From: Urbifossiella limnaea | Lineage (GTDB): Bacteria > Planctomycetota > Planctomycetia > Gemmatales > Gemmataceae | Direction of reading: 5' to 3' | DNA: 64,000 bases | NCBI RefSeq assembly: GCF_007747215.1 | Contig: NZ_CP036273.1 | Span: forward strand, 5,936,322 to 6,000,321 | Part shown: positions 7,171 through 58,715 of the stretch, in pieces | Layout of the letters: each line of letters starts with the position of its first letter | How positions within the stretch are numbered: position 1 is the first letter of the stretch | Notes under the pieces: model-generated | Told to the model about the DNA's origin: nothing | The model's input: only the letters and a program-made list of their open reading frames with translations | Database searches by the model: none | Made by a program: the position numbers and the translations under genes

Positions 7171-8178
7171 TCACGCCACGAGGCGCAGCGTCCGCGGTGA
7201 CTCGCCGCGGTAGATCGTGCCGATCCGCTCGCGCGTCAGCCCGAGCACCTTGTCGAACCGGCTCAGCTTCAGGCCCGCGATGCCGGTGTCGTAGTCGGCC
7301 AGGTGGTGGAGCATGTTCACGTCGGCCGTCACTTCGCGGTCGATCTCCCGGGCGAACAGCCGCCGCACCAGCCGCAGCCCGCCCATCGGGCCGGGGTAGC
7401 GCGACTTCGCGTACGTCACCGAGAACAGCCGCGTGCTCCGGTCGTCGATCGGCACGAAGAACAGGTACAGCCGCCACCGCACCATCCCCTCGCGGCTCCC
7501 GTCCGGGCTCGTCCACCAGTGGTCGTACACGCTGTACAGCGGCGAGAAGTACGTCGTCCAGTCGTCGTGGAACGTGTCGCCCGGCTTGATGCCGAGGAAC
7601 CACGCGAACACCGGGTTCAGCCGCTTCGTCGGCCCCTCGTTGATCACACGGACGCTGGAAGCGGTGCTCTCGAACCGCACCTTCACCTCGTTCATCCGCT
7701 CCAGGTCGTAACCGAACGTGGTGTGGACGGTGCCGCTGTGCTCGATCTCGGTGAAATTGTCCACCGCCAGTTCCAGCGGCGCCGGCAAGACGTGGCTGAG
7801 CGTGCACACCGGGTGGAAGCCGTCCGGGGCGAGCCGCGGGAACTCCGGCCTCGACTGGCGGGACTTGAGCCACACCAGGCCGTGCTCCTCGCGCACGTCG
7901 TAGCTGGTGGTGCAGGCGTGGAGCTTCGGGCTGCCGGGGCTCTCGCCGCTGCCGCACGCGTCGAACGTCCACCCGTGGTACTGGCACCGCAGCTTCTCGC
8001 CGACGACGGTGCCGATGCTCAACTTCAGCTTCCGGTGTGGGCAGGCGTCGGCCAGCGCGCCGAGGCCGGCGGCGGTGCGGAACACGGCGATCGGCTCGCC
8101 GGCGACCGTGACGCCGACCGGCTTCGCCCGCAGCTCCGCCGAGCGAAGCACCGGCTGCCAGTGGTCGAGCATCCCCAT
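7171..8178 (-). CDS. Rieske [2Fe-2S] non-heme iron oxygenase, alpha-subunit-like
   Basis: 335 residues. The Rieske centre is CPH (C46, H48) and CQYH (C65, H68). The mononuclear-iron motif DNFTEIEHSGTVH follows (Asp plus two His), then a helix-grip C-terminal domain. This is the layout of aromatic-ring or sterol-type monooxygenases (VanA or KSH-like), which hydroxylate or demethylate using electrons from a separate reductase. No reductase or ferredoxin gene is adjacent. Substrate unknown. GGTCGATACC at 8209-8218, read on this strand, lies 30 bases upstream of the ATG. Confidence 0.85.
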   Translation of the reverse strand: MGMLDHWQPVLRSAELRAKPVGVTVAGEPIAVFRTAAGLGALADACPHRKLKLSIGTVVGEKLRCQYHGWTFDACGSGESPGSPKLHACTTSYDVREEHGLVWLKSRQSRPEFPRLAPDGFHPVCTLSHVLPAPLELAVDNFTEIEHSGTVHTTFGYDLERMNEVKVRFESTASSVRVINEGPTKRLNPVFAWFLGIKPGDTFHDDWTTYFSPLYSVYDHWWTSPDGSREGMVRWRLYLFFVPIDDRSTRLFSVTYAKSRYPGPMGGLRLVRRLFAREIDREVTADVNMLHHLADYDTGIAGLKLSRFDKVLGLTRERIGTIYRGESPRTLRLVA

Positions 8179-8248
8179 GCGTGCAGTCTCCGGGGCGAAC
8201 GGTATCCCGGTATCGACCGCCCCCGCCGGCGTGGTTGACCCAAACCCC

Positions 8249-8254
8249 TACAAT
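8249..8254 (+). promoter_or_regulatory. Candidate -10 element TACAAT, ribE
   Basis: TACAAT ends 6 bases before the ribE ATG, so initiation at the usual distance would give a leaderless mRNA. No good Shine-Dalgarno site precedes the ATG and no clear -35 is seen. Confidence 0.4.
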
Positions 8255-8260
8255 GGGTAC

Positions 8261-8848
8261 ATGTTCACCGGTCTGGTGCAAACGCTCGGCACGGTACGGG
8301 CCGCCGAGGCCGACGGCGACGGCGGCCGCCGCTTCCGCGTGGCCGGGTTCGGCGAGGAACTGGCCGTCGGCGAGAGCGTGGCGGTGAACGGCGCGTGCAT
8401 GACGGTCACCGCCCGCGGCGCCGACGGCTTCGCCTTCCAGGCCGGCCCCGAGAGCCTGCTGCGGACGAACCTGGGGGCGCTGGCCCCCGGCGACGCGGTG
8501 AACCTGGAGCGCGCCCTCCGCGCCGGCGACCTGCTCGGCGGCCACTTCGTCACCGGCCACGTCGACGCCGTGGGGCGCATTGAAGAACGCACCACGACCG
8601 GCGAGTGGGAGACGGTGTGGTTCGGCTTCCCGCCCGGCTGGGACGAGCTGCTCGTGGAGAAGGGCTCGGTGGCGGTGGACGGCGTGAGCCTGACGGTGGT
8701 GGACGTGCGGCCGGACCGGTTCAGTGTGATGCTGATCCCGCACACCCGGGCGCACACCACGCTCGGCCCGAAGGGCGTCGGCGCGGCCGTGAACCTGGAG
8801 TTCGACCTGCTGGCCAAGCACGTCCGCAAACTGGTGCGCCGCGTATAA
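8261..8848 (+). CDS. ribE: Riboflavin synthase alpha chain
   Basis: Catalyses dismutation of two 6,7-dimethyl-8-ribityllumazine molecules to riboflavin and the pyrimidinedione. The 195 residues consist of two lumazine-binding repeats: MFTGLVQTLGTV with VNGACMTVT, and GHFVTGHVDAVG with VDGVSLTVVDV. The N-terminal MFTGLV is diagnostic and fixes the start. No other rib genes are in the window. It is followed after 7 bases by argS. Confidence 0.93.
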   Translation: MFTGLVQTLGTVRAAEADGDGGRRFRVAGFGEELAVGESVAVNGACMTVTARGADGFAFQAGPESLLRTNLGALAPGDAVNLERALRAGDLLGGHFVTGHVDAVGRIEERTTTGEWETVWFGFPPGWDELLVEKGSVAVDGVSLTVVDVRPDRFSVMLIPHTRAHTTLGPKGVGAAVNLEFDLLAKHVRKLVRRV

Positions 8849-15287: not shown

Positions 15288-15350
15288 CGGGTTCGGAACG
15301 GCCGTGGCCGCGGCTGTCGATCCAATATTGATCTTTATGAGTCGGTGACA

Positions 15351-15393
15351 TGTTTCCGCGACCCGACCCCCCTCGGCCGGAAAGAAGAATCCC
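15351..15393. repeat. TGTTTCCGCGACCCG repeat copy 1
   Basis: TGTTTCCGCGACCCG (15351-15365) is identical to 32890-32904. Both copies are followed by a CGGAAA right half that can fold back on TTTCCG. Each lies in an intergenic region just upstream of a rightward gene. Confidence 0.5.
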
Positions 15394-15452
15394 GGCTTGA
15401 GGGTGGGCCGCGGGATACAACAGCGGCGTCCTTCTCCGTTGCGGAGCGTGCC

Positions 15453-16310
15453 ATGCAGCTCGGGAAAGTCCGTCGGCCGAACGGCCGCGTCGGCGTCGTG
15501 CTCGTCGAGTCCGGCCACGTCTTCGACCTCGACATGACCCGCAAGCCGGGCGTCCACACCCTCGCCGACGTGCTCCACGCCCCCGACCCCCTCCGGCTGG
15601 CGCGCGAACTCATCGACGCGGGAAGCACGTCGGAGCCGGCCGGGCGGCAGGTGTATCTGGCGCCGGTGGACAAGCAGGAGGTGTGGGCTGCGGGCGTGAC
15701 GTACAAGCGGAGCAAAGTGGCCCGCGAGGAAGAGAGCAAGGGGGCGGCCCAGTTCTACGACAAGGTGTACACGGCGCCGCGGCCGGAGCTGTTCCTGAAG
15801 GCCACGCCGGCGCGGGTGGTCCACCCCGGCGAGCCGGTGAAGGTGCGGGCCGACAGCACCTGGAGCGTGCCGGAGCCGGAGTTGGCGCTGGTGGTGTCGC
15901 CGGACCTGCGGATCGTGGGGTACACGGTCGGCAACGACATGAGCGCCCGCGACATCGAGGGCGAGAACCCGCTGTACCTGCCGCAGGCGAAGATCTACAA
16001 GCAGTCGTGCAGCATCGGCCCGCTGGTGACGCTGGCCGCGAAGATGCCGCCGCTGGCCGGCGTGGAGATCAAGCTGACGATCAAGCGCGGCGGAACGACG
16101 GCGTTCGAGGGGAGCACGACGCTGGAGCAACTGTCGCGGACGCCGGAGAGCCTGGTCGAGTGGCTCGGCAAGGAAAACGCCTTCCCCGACGGCGCGCTGC
16201 TGCTGACGGGCACCGGCATCGTGCCGCCGGACGAGTTCACGCTGAAGCCGGGCGACGCGGTGAGCATCAGCATCACGGGAATCGGCACGCTGTCGAACCC
16301 GGTGGTGTGA
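15453..16310 (+). CDS. Fumarylacetoacetate hydrolase (FAH) family protein
   Basis: 285 residues. The C-terminal FAH fold is seen in VWAAGVTYKRSK, PELFLKATPARVV, VPEPELALVV (metal-binding acidic residues) and GYTVGNDMSARDIEGENPLY, with the catalytic glycine-rich end LLLTGTGIVPP. The family includes C-C bond hydrolases, decarboxylases and isomerases of catechol or ketoacid breakdown; the exact substrate is unknown. ATG 15453 has GGAG 7 bases upstream, and the upstream open frame is the repeat at 15351. No neighbouring catabolic genes support a specific pathway. Confidence 0.87.
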   Translation: MQLGKVRRPNGRVGVVLVESGHVFDLDMTRKPGVHTLADVLHAPDPLRLARELIDAGSTSEPAGRQVYLAPVDKQEVWAAGVTYKRSKVAREEESKGAAQFYDKVYTAPRPELFLKATPARVVHPGEPVKVRADSTWSVPEPELALVVSPDLRIVGYTVGNDMSARDIEGENPLYLPQAKIYKQSCSIGPLVTLAAKMPPLAGVEIKLTIKRGGTTAFEGSTTLEQLSRTPESLVEWLGKENAFPDGALLLTGTGIVPPDEFTLKPGDAVSISITGIGTLSNPVV

Positions 16311-16357: not shown

Positions 16358-18478
16358 ATGCGTCACCACCGGAACCGGTTCGCGCTGGAGCGCCTCGAAC
16401 CCCGCGACGTGCCGGCGGCCCAGTTCGCGGCCGTCGGCTCCGACGCCGGCGACATCGGCCGCGCGCAGCTGGTGGACACGGAGACCGGCACGCCGCGCTA
16501 CAGCGTCTTCCCGTTCGGCACCGACTTCACCGGCGGCGTCAGCGTCGCGGCGGGGGACGTGAACGGCGACGGCGTCACCGACCTGATCGCGGCGCCCGGC
16601 GCCGGCGGCGGGCCGGTGGTCAAGGTGTTCGACGGCGTCACCGGGGTCGAACTCTACAACCAACTCGTGTTCGACGCGTCGTTCCGCGGCGGGGTGTACG
16701 TCGCGGCCGGCGACACGAACCTCGACGGCAAGGCGGAAATCATCGCCGGCGCCGGCGAGGGCGGCGGCCCGGCCGTGACCGTCATCGACGGCGGCACCGG
16801 TGCCGTCGCCAGCAGTTTCTTCGCGTACGGCGACGGCTTCCGCGGCGGCGTCCGCGTCGCGGCCGGCGACGTGGACGGCGACGGCCGGGCCGACGTGATC
16901 GCGGGCGCCGGCCCGGGCGGGGCGCCGCACGTGCGGGCCGTCAGCGTCGCGGCCGGCGGCCGGGAACTCGCCAGCTTCCTGGCCTACGACGCCGCCTTCG
17001 CCGGCGGCGTGTTCGTCGCGGCCGGCGACCTCGACGCCGACGGCCGGACCGACATCGTCACCGGCACCGGCGCCGGCGGCGGCCCGCTGGTGAACAGCTT
17101 CCGCGGCGACGGCACCGCGTTCGACTCGTTCGTCATCGGCGACGGCAGCTCCCGGGCCGGCGTCCGCGTCGGCGTCGTCCACCGCGGGTACACCGCCGAC
17201 ATCGCCACCGTCGTCCCCGGCGCCGGCGTCGGCCGCTTCACCCCGACCGGCGAACCGACGGACGCCTCCGGCCTGACGGGGAACGGGTGGGTGAGCGGCC
17301 CCGCGGAGGCGACGCCGGACGCGGCACTACTGTGGAACCAGGTGGCGCTGCGGGCCGTCGCCGCCGACGCCACCCCGGCGCCGGCCGCGGCCCGGGCGCT
17401 GGCGATGCTCCACATCGCCGTCTTCGAGTCGGCGAACGTCATCGTCCGGCGGTACGAGTCGTACAGTTTCACCCCCGGGTCGCCCGACGACGCCGACCCC
17501 GAGGCGGCGGCGCTGCTCGCCGGGGAGCAGGTGCTGTCGGGCCTCTTCCCGGAGCAAGCCACCGAGTTCGTCCGCATCCGCAACGCCCGGCTGGCGCTGA
17601 TCCCGGACGGCACGGCGAAGGACGGCGGCCTCCAGACCGGCGCCCAAGAAGCGGAATTCCTCCTCTTCATCCGGGGGTTCGACGGCTCGGCCGAGGCCGG
17701 CTCGGTGCCGTTCACCCCGGGCACCAACCCCGGCGACTGGCGGCCGACGCCGCCCGACAACGCCCCGTTCCTGCTCCCCGGCTGGGGCAACGTGTCCACG
17801 TTCGCCATCGGGTCGGCGGCCGTGTTCCGCCCGAACGGCCCGCCGGAAGTGTCGAGCCTCGAGTACGCGGCCGAGCTGAACGCGGTGCAGCAACTCGGCC
17901 GGATCGACAGTAGCACCCGCACCGCGGACCAGACGCAGCAGGCGCTCTTCTGGGCCGGCGGGGCGGGCGCGAGCGCCGTGACGCAGGACGTGGTCCGCCG
18001 CGAGAACCTCGACCTGCTCGACTCGGCGCGGGCGTTCGCGCTGGTGGCGATGGCCGCGGCCGACGCCGCGATCGTGGCCTGGGACTCGAAGCTGACGTTC
18101 GCGCGCTGGCGGCCGATCACCGCGGTCCGCGAGGCGGGCGGCGACGACAACCCCGGCACGACTGCGGACCCGACTTGGACGCCGCTACTGGCGACGCCGA
18201 ACCACCCGGACTACATCTCGGACACGGCGGCGGTGACCGCCGCTGGCGCGGCAGTACTGACGGCGCTCTTCGGCGAGGGGTACGCCTTCCGCGCGTACTC
18301 GCCGGCGCTGCCGGGGGTAACGCGGTCCTTTGCCGGCTTCGCCGACGCCGCGGCGGAGGCGGCGCAAAGCGGCGTTTCCGGCGGGGTGCAGTTCCCGTCG
18401 TCGGCCGCGGACGGCCTCGCCGCCGGGGAGGCGGTCGGCGGCGTGGTCGTGGGCACGAAGCTGCGGCCGCTGGCGTGA
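16358..18478 (+). CDS. FG-GAP repeat protein fused to a degenerate vanadium haloperoxidase-like domain
   Basis: 706 residues. The N-terminus RFALERLEPRDVPAA matches the planctomycete LEPR-type leader of exported proteins. Residues about 30-310 hold VCBS/FG-GAP propeller repeats with calcium loops such as DVNGDGVTD, DVDGDGRAD and DLDADGRTD. Residues about 320-706 match the all-helical PAP2/vanadium haloperoxidase fold (TPGTNPGDWRPTPP; DSKLTFARWRPITAVRE). The Lys and Arg of the phosphate/vanadate site are kept. The SGH motif is SDT (Thr623 for the acid-base His), and the R...GGIH segment reads G672...GGVQ678, losing the Arg and the vanadate-linked His. Probably secreted and non-catalytic. Confidence 0.85.
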   Translation: MRHHRNRFALERLEPRDVPAAQFAAVGSDAGDIGRAQLVDTETGTPRYSVFPFGTDFTGGVSVAAGDVNGDGVTDLIAAPGAGGGPVVKVFDGVTGVELYNQLVFDASFRGGVYVAAGDTNLDGKAEIIAGAGEGGGPAVTVIDGGTGAVASSFFAYGDGFRGGVRVAAGDVDGDGRADVIAGAGPGGAPHVRAVSVAAGGRELASFLAYDAAFAGGVFVAAGDLDADGRTDIVTGTGAGGGPLVNSFRGDGTAFDSFVIGDGSSRAGVRVGVVHRGYTADIATVVPGAGVGRFTPTGEPTDASGLTGNGWVSGPAEATPDAALLWNQVALRAVAADATPAPAAARALAMLHIAVFESANVIVRRYESYSFTPGSPDDADPEAAALLAGEQVLSGLFPEQATEFVRIRNARLALIPDGTAKDGGLQTGAQEAEFLLFIRGFDGSAEAGSVPFTPGTNPGDWRPTPPDNAPFLLPGWGNVSTFAIGSAAVFRPNGPPEVSSLEYAAELNAVQQLGRIDSSTRTADQTQQALFWAGGAGASAVTQDVVRRENLDLLDSARAFALVAMAAADAAIVAWDSKLTFARWRPITAVREAGGDDNPGTTADPTWTPLLATPNHPDYISDTAAVTAAGAAVLTALFGEGYAFRAYSPALPGVTRSFAGFADAAAEAAQSGVSGGVQFPSSAADGLAAGEAVGGVVVGTKLRPLA

Positions 18479-56369: not shown

Positions 56370-58715
56370 ATGACACGCCAGCTCCGCCCCGAGTTGCTTG
56401 AGGACCGCAGCGTCCCCGCCGCGGTCGGTGCCCTCGACCCGTCGTTCGACACCGACGGCCTCGTCCGCACGACATTCGGAGCCACCGACACGGGTAGCGC
56501 CGTCGCCGTCCAGCCCGACGGCAAGGTCGTCGTCGCCGGGCTCACCACCAACGGCAACGACGTGGCCGTCGTCCGTTACAACCCCGACGGAAGCCTCGAC
56601 ACCAGCTTCGACACCGACGGCAAGGCCACCTACGACCTGGGGGCCGGCATCCTCACCCCGCAGATTACCGGCCTGGCCCTCCAGGACGACGGCAAGATCG
56701 TCATCTGCGGGTACGGCAACATCGGCGGCGACGACGACTTCGTCGTGGTCCGACTCAACGCCAACGGCAGCGCGGACACGACGTTCAGCGCCGACGGCCG
56801 GGCCACCCGCAACTTCGCCGGCGGCGGCACCAACGACGACCAGGCGTTCGGCGTGGCCGTCCTCGGCACCGGCGCGACGCGGAAGATCATCCTCGTCGGG
56901 TCCTCCGACCAGACGACCGCTGGCACCGGGTTCGACTTCGCGGTCGCGTCATTCAACGACAACGGCACCACCGACACCGCCTTCAACGCCGGCGGCACCC
57001 CCGGCCGGCTGACCCGCACCCTCGGCGGCACCGACCGCGGCCGGGCCGTCGCCATCGACAGCGCCGACCGCATCGTCGTGGCCGGGTTCACCAACGGCGG
57101 CGGCACGAACGACTTCGGCGTCCTCCGCGTCCTGCCCGCCGGGACCGTCGACGTCGCCTTCAACGGCACCGGCACTCAGACAGTGAACTTCGGCGCCGAC
57201 GACCAGGCCACCAGCGTGGCCGTCCGGCCCGACGACCGCATCGTCGTCGGCGGGTTCAGCGACGCCGGGTTCGCCGACTTCGCCGTCGCCCAACTCACCG
57301 CGACCGGGTTGCAGGACACCGCCGGGTTCAACCCCACCGGCGCCGGCGCCGTCGGCAGCGCCCCCGGCCGGTTCACCTTCAACTTCGGCGCCCTCGGCGT
57401 GGTCGAGCGCGCCAACGCCATCGCCCTCCAGCCGGACGACAAGATCGTGCTCGCCGGGTTCAGCGCCATCAACGCCACCGGCGGCAACCCGAACGACTTC
57501 GCCGTCGCCCGGGTCACCGCCGACGGCAAGCTCGACACCAGCTTCGCCACCGACGGCCGGGCCACCGCCGACTTCGGCGCCGACGACCAGGGCGCCGGCG
57601 CGGCCATCGACAACAACGGCCGCGTCGTCGTGGCCGGGTTCACCACCAGCAACAACGACTTCGCCGTGGCCCGGTTCGTCGGTTCGGTCGAGAAGGGGGA
57701 CCGGGTCGTGGTCGGCGGGTCAACGAACGGCGCCGCCCAGGGCTTCGACCCGAACGCCGCGGGCGTCCTCCCGGCCGTGCAGACGTTCACGGGGGCGCCG
57801 TTCGGCGCCGTCGCCGCGAACGTCCGCACCGCGGTCGGCGACGTGGACGGCGACGGCATCGACGACGCCATCCTGGTGACCGGGCCGGGCGTGGCCATTC
57901 GCGTGGCGGTGCTCAGCGGGGCCGACGGCGCCACTCTGCTGGTCAACCCGTTCGACCCGTTCGGCGGCGGCTTCACCGGCGGCGGGTTCGTCACCGCCGG
58001 CGACTTCGACCTCGACGGCAAGGCCGAGTTCATCGTGACCCCGGACGAGGGGGGCGGCCCGCGGGTGAGCATCTTCACCCGCAACGCCGACGGCACCACC
58101 ACCACGAAGGCCAACTTCTTCGGCATCGACGACGCCGACTTCCGCGGCGGCGCCCGCGCCGCGACCGGCGACGTGGACGGCGACGGCACCCCCGACCTGG
58201 CGGTGGCGGCCGGGTTCGGCGGCGGGCCGCGGGTGGCCCTGTTCGACGGCGGCACCGTGTTCGGCACCCCGACCCGGATCGTGGGCGACTTCTTCGCCTT
58301 CCCCGGCACCGACGCCGTGAACCTCCGCAACGGGGCGTTCGTGGCCGCCGGCGACGTGGACGGCGACGGGTTCGCCGACCTGGCGTTCGGCGGCGGCCCC
58401 GGCGGCGCCCCGCGGGTGTTCGTGCTGAGCGGCGCGCTGGTGAGCGCCGGCAACGTGGGCGGGGCGCAGGCGGCGCCGGTGCTGAACTTCTTCGTGGCGA
58501 ACGACACCGACGACCGCGGCGGGGTGCGGGTGGCCTTGGCCGACCTGGACGGCGACCAGAAGGCGGACGTGCTGGCCGGCAGCGGCCAGAACCGGCCGGC
58601 GGGGGTGCGGGTGTACCTCGGCAAGAACATTACCGGTTCGGCCGAGCCGGCGACGTTCCAGGATCTGGCGTTGTTCGGCGGCGCCGTCCTGCCGGGCGGG
58701 GTGTTCGTGGGGTAA
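56370..58715 (+). CDS. Secreted delta-60 repeat / FG-GAP (VCBS) protein
   Basis: 781 residues. The N-terminus RPELLEDRSVPAA matches the planctomycete LE-x-R-x-VPA leader. About 20-440: delta-60 repeats, each with an LDxSFxxDG start and a QPDGKVVVAG or QPDDKIVLAG core (for example IALQPDDKIVLAGF). About 450-781: VCBS/FG-GAP repeats with calcium-binding loops DVDGDGIDD, DFDLDGKAE, DVDGDGTPD, DVDGDGFAD and DLDGDQKAD. Probably two propellers on the cell surface or secreted. AGAGG lies 6 bases before the ATG. Confidence 0.87.
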   Translation: MTRQLRPELLEDRSVPAAVGALDPSFDTDGLVRTTFGATDTGSAVAVQPDGKVVVAGLTTNGNDVAVVRYNPDGSLDTSFDTDGKATYDLGAGILTPQITGLALQDDGKIVICGYGNIGGDDDFVVVRLNANGSADTTFSADGRATRNFAGGGTNDDQAFGVAVLGTGATRKIILVGSSDQTTAGTGFDFAVASFNDNGTTDTAFNAGGTPGRLTRTLGGTDRGRAVAIDSADRIVVAGFTNGGGTNDFGVLRVLPAGTVDVAFNGTGTQTVNFGADDQATSVAVRPDDRIVVGGFSDAGFADFAVAQLTATGLQDTAGFNPTGAGAVGSAPGRFTFNFGALGVVERANAIALQPDDKIVLAGFSAINATGGNPNDFAVARVTADGKLDTSFATDGRATADFGADDQGAGAAIDNNGRVVVAGFTTSNNDFAVARFVGSVEKGDRVVVGGSTNGAAQGFDPNAAGVLPAVQTFTGAPFGAVAANVRTAVGDVDGDGIDDAILVTGPGVAIRVAVLSGADGATLLVNPFDPFGGGFTGGGFVTAGDFDLDGKAEFIVTPDEGGGPRVSIFTRNADGTTTTKANFFGIDDADFRGGARAATGDVDGDGTPDLAVAAGFGGGPRVALFDGGTVFGTPTRIVGDFFAFPGTDAVNLRNGAFVAAGDVDGDGFADLAFGGGPGGAPRVFVLSGALVSAGNVGGAQAAPVLNFFVANDTDDRGGVRVALADLDGDQKADVLAGSGQNRPAGVRVYLGKNITGSAEPATFQDLALFGGAVLPGGVFVG

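Follow-up and report, generated by a model that had tools for sequence, protein, structure and literature searches.

The vanadate site of Curvularia V-CPO is made up of Lys353, Arg360, Ser402, Gly403, Arg490 and the ligand His496, with His404 as the catalytic residue (PMC9144378). Proteins with the vanadium-haloperoxidase (VHPO) fold that lack halogenase activity are already known, namely NapH3 and MarH2 (PMC12871659). The closest solved relative of the domain described here, by both sequence and structure, is the vanadium iodoperoxidase of Zobellia galactanivorans (4cit, 4usz), which shares the same helical fold. In the literature that we searched, pseudoenzymes of the VHPO fold hardly appear, and planctomycete fusions of a VHPO domain with an FG-GAP propeller were not found. 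The protein of Urbifossiella limnaea described here is encoded in the window, the whole stretch of 64,000 nucleotides that was analysed. What is new in it is a VHPO domain with an erased cofactor site, carried on a propeller, with a canonical-site orthologue in a sister species.

Domain organization of the protein

The reading frame shows no internal stop across its 706 residues, and the G+C content at third codon positions is 0.95–0.97 in both of its halves. A frame error or an assembly artefact is ruled out, as homology is collinear on both sides of every changed residue, the frame is free of stops and the genome is one contig. The features of the locus are summarized in Table 1.

Table 1. 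Features of the FG-GAP/VHPO locus, in positions of the window
Feature	Position	Strand	Remarks and basis
Fumarylacetoacetate-hydrolase-type gene	15345..16310	+	47 bases upstream of the FG-GAP-VHPO ORF; family named from sequence
FG-GAP/pseudo-haloperoxidase ORF	16358..18478	+	706 aa plus stop; translation, ORF list
LERLEPRDVPA motif, aa 10-20	16385..16417	+	planctomycete-type export/surface motif, putative role; sequence
FG-GAP beta-propeller, aa ~23-308	16424..17281	+	Pfam PF01839/PF13517; AF2 of the part alone; Foldseek
VHPO-type helical domain, aa 316-706	17303..18475	+	phmmer, AF2, VIA
In-frame deletion point, aa 537/538	17966..17971	+	TPPGHWN loop of the family absent; alignment
K578 (= Lys353 of V-CPO)	18089..18091	+	retained; alignment, relatives survey
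R585 (= Arg360 of V-CPO)	18110..18112	+	retained, invariant across all relatives; alignment, relatives survey
H616 (= Phe397 halide-pocket position)	18203..18205	+	His in canonical sister L032 too
S621-D622-T623	18218..18226	+	replaces S-G-H (Ser402/Gly403/His404); alignment, relatives survey
G672	18371..18373	+	replaces vanadate-binding Arg490; alignment, relatives survey
Q678	18389..18391	+	replaces vanadate-ligating His496; alignment, relatives survey

The earlier note described an FG-GAP propeller fused to a haloperoxidase fold, and both parts of this description are borne out. FG-GAP PF01839 matches at E 1.4e-14, above the Pfam cut-off, in four stretches of residues ~50–260. Folded alone with AF2, the propeller reaches a pLDDT of 91.9, and the best Foldseek matches of its model include the propellers of integrin alpha and of rhamnogalacturonan lyase. 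The loops DVNGDG, DTNLDG, DVDGDG and DLDADG follow the DxDxDG pattern; all four are of the calcium-binding type and would presumably hold calcium. Across the genome, 114 places resemble the window protein, nearly all of them through the FG-GAP propeller.

The C-terminal domain matches the bacterial vanadium iodoperoxidase 4cit with a phmmer E value of 1e-24 and Curvularia V-CPO with one of about 1e-8. It stays below the cut-offs of the Pfam VCPO models, while canonical-site relatives do match PAP2. The AF2 model of this domain has a pLDDT of about 98 and superposes on 4usz with a Z score of 47.6 (2.3 Å over 379 residues), on NapH3 (8cxl) with 36.2 and on the V-CPO H496A mutant 1vnh with 35.0. 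Sequence match and model agree that the VHPO/PAP2 helical fold is present. Given an alignment of active relatives, however, AlphaFold would give the same fold even if the domain were mildly damaged.

On inspection, the sequence shows no signal peptide of the ordinary hydrophobic type. Comparable LExRxVPA starts are found on other FG-GAP proteins of the same genome, and from this shared N-terminal LExRxxP motif we infer that the whole protein is placed in the envelope or at the surface. The motif is what remains in favour of the earlier description of the protein as secreted. A second ORF with an LExRxVPA start (781 codons, 56370–58712) lies in the same window and contains a propeller-like stretch at ~57700–58700.

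Residues of the vanadate site

Window residues were assigned to V-CPO positions by direct alignment. The seven site residues are K578, R585, S621, D622, T623, G672 and Q678, reading KRSDTGQ against the canonical KRSGHRH. Three of the seven are retained (K578, R585 and S621, the equivalents of Lys353, Arg360 and Ser402) and four are changed: Gly to D622, His to T623, Arg to G672 and His to Q678. The vanadate-binding set is thereby incomplete at the Gly403 and Arg490 positions, and the axial ligand His of the RxxxGxH motif is absent. The same two His positions serve as nucleophile and acid-base residue in PAP2 acid phosphatases, and these are replaced by Q678 and T623. We surveyed the columns in 138 relatives drawn from the family, the class and named genomes, leaving gapped positions out of the count. 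His occupies column 623 in 135 of 136 relatives and column 678 in 131 of 135, and Arg occupies column 672 in 132 of 134; such near-invariance argues that the substitutions are not due to chance.

The motifs and the numbering of Thr623, Gly672 and Gln678 given earlier for an erased site are correct, as is the statement that the Lys and Arg of the first half of the site remain, but Asp622 in place of the motif Gly was omitted from that list. The weight placed on the loss of the SGH His also needs adjustment. The change to T623 is real, yet by itself it is not decisive for inactivity, because the vanadate-bound structure of XhnO11 (9l8x) has SGS where SGH is expected, with Ser at the His404 position. 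Q678 and G672 are predicted to be the decisive changes. The earlier note proposed an alignment check for alternative His or Arg residues filling the pocket, and none was found in the sequence of the VHPO domain. The domain contains two His in all, H352 and H616; H616 is not a replacement ligand, since the canonical sister L032 has the same His alongside a normal ligand.

Origin of the loss

The closest relative, L032 from another species of the same genus (G089), is 59% identical and shows the same FG-GAP fusion, with the canonical motifs VSGHSTF and SRIYCGIH. L033, the orthologue in another genus (G045), also has a canonical vanadate site. The locus itself is conserved: a protein 86% identical to the fumarylacetoacetate-hydrolase-type neighbour adjoins L032, and the neighbour is adjacent in G045 as well. 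Because L032 and L033 are canonical at this same locus, the comparison of sequences indicates that the site loss is derived and occurred in the lineage of the window species. As the same gene keeps the cofactor residues in its relatives, what the window species holds is very probably a dead version of an enzyme that is otherwise active. A single further VHPO was found in the genome, a canonical stand-alone protein (G000:C1:1639011-1640192, minus strand), 43% identical to the window domain and with the motifs YTSGHSSF and SRVYGGIHW. In three species from two genera (the window, L194 at 7606-8515 and L195), the gene immediately preceding the FG-GAP-VHPO gene is of the fumarylacetoacetate-hydrolase type, which may mean a functional link.

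Parallel losses in Planctomycetia

Three more erased proteins, L110, L122 and L127, occur in one other family; the residue table enters them a second time as L185, L175 and L176. Their seven positions read QRSDHRN, VRADHRN and QRSDSRN, respectively. With the window protein, they make up four Planctomycetia proteins without the ligand His. In each, exactly one of the three cationic ligands is gone. All four erased proteins combine Asp at the Gly of SGH with loss of the ligand His, a pairing that no other protein examined shows, and a wider survey of the phylum gave no additional protein of this Asp/Asn-Gln kind.

In a tree computed without the site columns, the window protein pairs with L032 (support 100/100), L122 groups with L127, and L110, on a long branch, groups with L073. 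A single ancient pseudo-VHPO clade that includes the window protein is rejected (p-AU 4e-7), and the erased state needs three changes on three separate branches, so the route of ligand loss appears to have been taken about three times. The orthologues L122 and L127, from two species of one genus (G215 and G221), have upstream neighbours of the same kind. For this pair omega is about 0.05 and a value of 1 is strongly rejected, with synonymous sites near saturation; this points to purifying selection and argues that the erased form is maintained at least here. The pair is also the more suitable one for studies of selection and for assays. Each protein has an LEGRxLLS N-terminus and a segment that resembles an Ig domain on visual inspection.

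Other altered sites were seen among the relatives. L065 (Singulisphaera) and L093 (G203) have Val for Arg490 and SAH for SGH, keep both His and continue into a TIGR03118 domain; judged from their residues, they are a second, milder kind of altered site. L219 (G457:C74) has CGL for SGH and one in-frame stop, and may be a pseudogene.

Rate of evolution and selection

With L033 as outgroup, the VHPO domain of the window protein has 61 private changes against 23 in L032, while the propeller has 19 against 18; the difference in asymmetry between the two domains gives a Fisher p of 0.036. The VHPO branch of the window protein is about twice as long as that of its sister (0.52 and 0.26). In 95 conserved columns L032 departs 8 times and the window protein 22 times; of the latter departures, 4 fall in the 7 ligand columns and 18 in the other 88, so that 70 of the 88 non-ligand columns are kept. 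A codon model rejects omega = 1 on the window branch (2dlnL 39.8), where synonymous sites are saturated, omega is rough and the branch includes time before the site was lost. Two states would agree with these data: a dead domain whose constraint is partly relaxed, or one that is adapting to a new role.

Interpretation of the erased site

The comparisons and the model point, with a probability of about 0.62, to an FG-GAP propeller protein whose VHPO bundle keeps its fold, would be unable to hold vanadate, would have neither haloperoxidase nor PAP2-type phosphatase activity and would persist as a non-catalytic module. Loss of catalysis should be by far the likeliest consequence of the destroyed site: with no vanadate held, neither hypohalous acid production nor PAP2-type phosphatase action would be expected. 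We propose that the anion pocket switched from oxyanion binding to self-neutralization, with the carboxylate of D622 standing in the place of the anion beside the retained R585 and K578, and that the bundle would thus be stable without cofactor. A D622 that stands in for the vanadate anion would explain why Gly-to-Asp is always found with loss of the ligand His. Together, propeller and folded bundle may persist as a module of the envelope or surface, possibly with a part in adhesion or in binding a ligand, and the separate canonical VHPO could supply any haloperoxidase activity. According to the earlier note, the protein looks like a pseudoenzyme that has found a new use as a binding or structural module. 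The pseudoenzyme part agrees with the destroyed site and the probable loss of catalysis; re-use is less secure, as the loss is lineage-specific, the VHPO domain has a higher rate of change than the propeller, and decay is a serious competing explanation.

Such decay, a recent loss without re-use, is on the whole unlikely. Haloperoxidase activity would have become dispensable, the site would have mutated under relaxed constraint, and the domain would be heading to decay with the ORF held open by propeller function and chance. The loss is indeed confined to the window species, with L032 intact, the VHPO branch is about twice as long as the sister's, the VHPO domain but not the propeller is accelerated, 18 conserved non-ligand columns are altered and a loop is deleted in-frame, and the canonical paralogue provides a back-up. 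However, the frame is intact to the C-terminal end of the VHPO domain with normal codon make-up, though a stop there would spare the propeller. Rejection of omega = 1 over the window branch (pre-loss time included), the 70 conserved columns kept and the same erased pattern maintained between two species elsewhere (L122 and L127) also argue against simple decay.

The pocket could instead catalyse a vanadate-independent reaction on the same fold, as NapH3 does, but this seems improbable. In its favour, the structure of NapH3, a VHPO homologue whose reaction does not depend on halogenation, has been solved and aligns to our model with a Z score of 36.2, and NapH3/MarH2-like sequences have been called non-halogenase VHPO homologues (PMC12871659). 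Recurrence of the same substitution set is also what a selected new site would produce. Against it, the other erased lineages differ from the window protein in which cation is lost, and no biosynthetic neighbours are found. NapH3 acts through an active-site His, which is phosphorylated, whereas both site His are gone here. It is highly improbable that haloperoxidase activity persists, with vanadate bound through other residues such as H616. K578, R585 and S621 are kept, H616 is at the pocket and XhnO11 binds vanadate with Ser in place of the SGH His, but the axial ligand His and one vanadate Arg are both absent, H616 coexists with a normal ligand in the sister protein and an Asp beside the oxyanion hole should repel vanadate.

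A non-catalytic module, our preferred reading, may also have a wider form, which we offer as a tentative idea and do not favour. Planctomycetia would repeatedly turn surface-type VHPO domains cofactor-free by changing the ligand His to Asn or Gln and the SGH Gly to Asp and by dropping one cationic ligand; a built-in carboxylate would replace the vanadate anion, and the pocket would be a selected binding or structural site. An active-looking and an inactive-looking orthologue at one locus, together with three parallel coupled losses, make the route from metalloenzyme to cofactor-free protein directly testable. For annotation, a planctomycete protein with a good match to VHPO should not be taken for a halogenating enzyme on that ground.

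Comparison with known systems

L032 and L033 have the same locus and two-domain build as the window protein and differ from it in their canonical vanadate sites. L110, L122 and L127 resemble it in the Gly-to-Asp change in SGH and in the loss of one cationic ligand, with the ligand His replaced by Asn rather than Gln. Unlike the window protein, they keep Arg490 and have lost Lys353, two of them keep the SGH His, and they lie on separate branches. Their N-terminal parts also differ from that of the window protein, being the segment of Ig-like appearance in L122 and L127 and another part in L110. The Z. galactanivorans enzyme has PEYTSGH and SRMYGGIH where the window protein has PDYISDT and SGVSGGVQ, and the window protein adds the propeller. 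NapH3 and MarH2 are non-halogenases of the VHPO fold, like the proposed state of the window protein, but they are biosynthetic enzymes of actinobacteria, their reactions are known or have been proposed, and they are not close in sequence; for NapH3 the match to the window domain is weak (E 0.0014). The Curvularia V-CPO mutants H496A (1vnh) and H404A (1vng) carry laboratory changes at two of the same positions on the same fold. However, these are single engineered changes in an otherwise canonical site.
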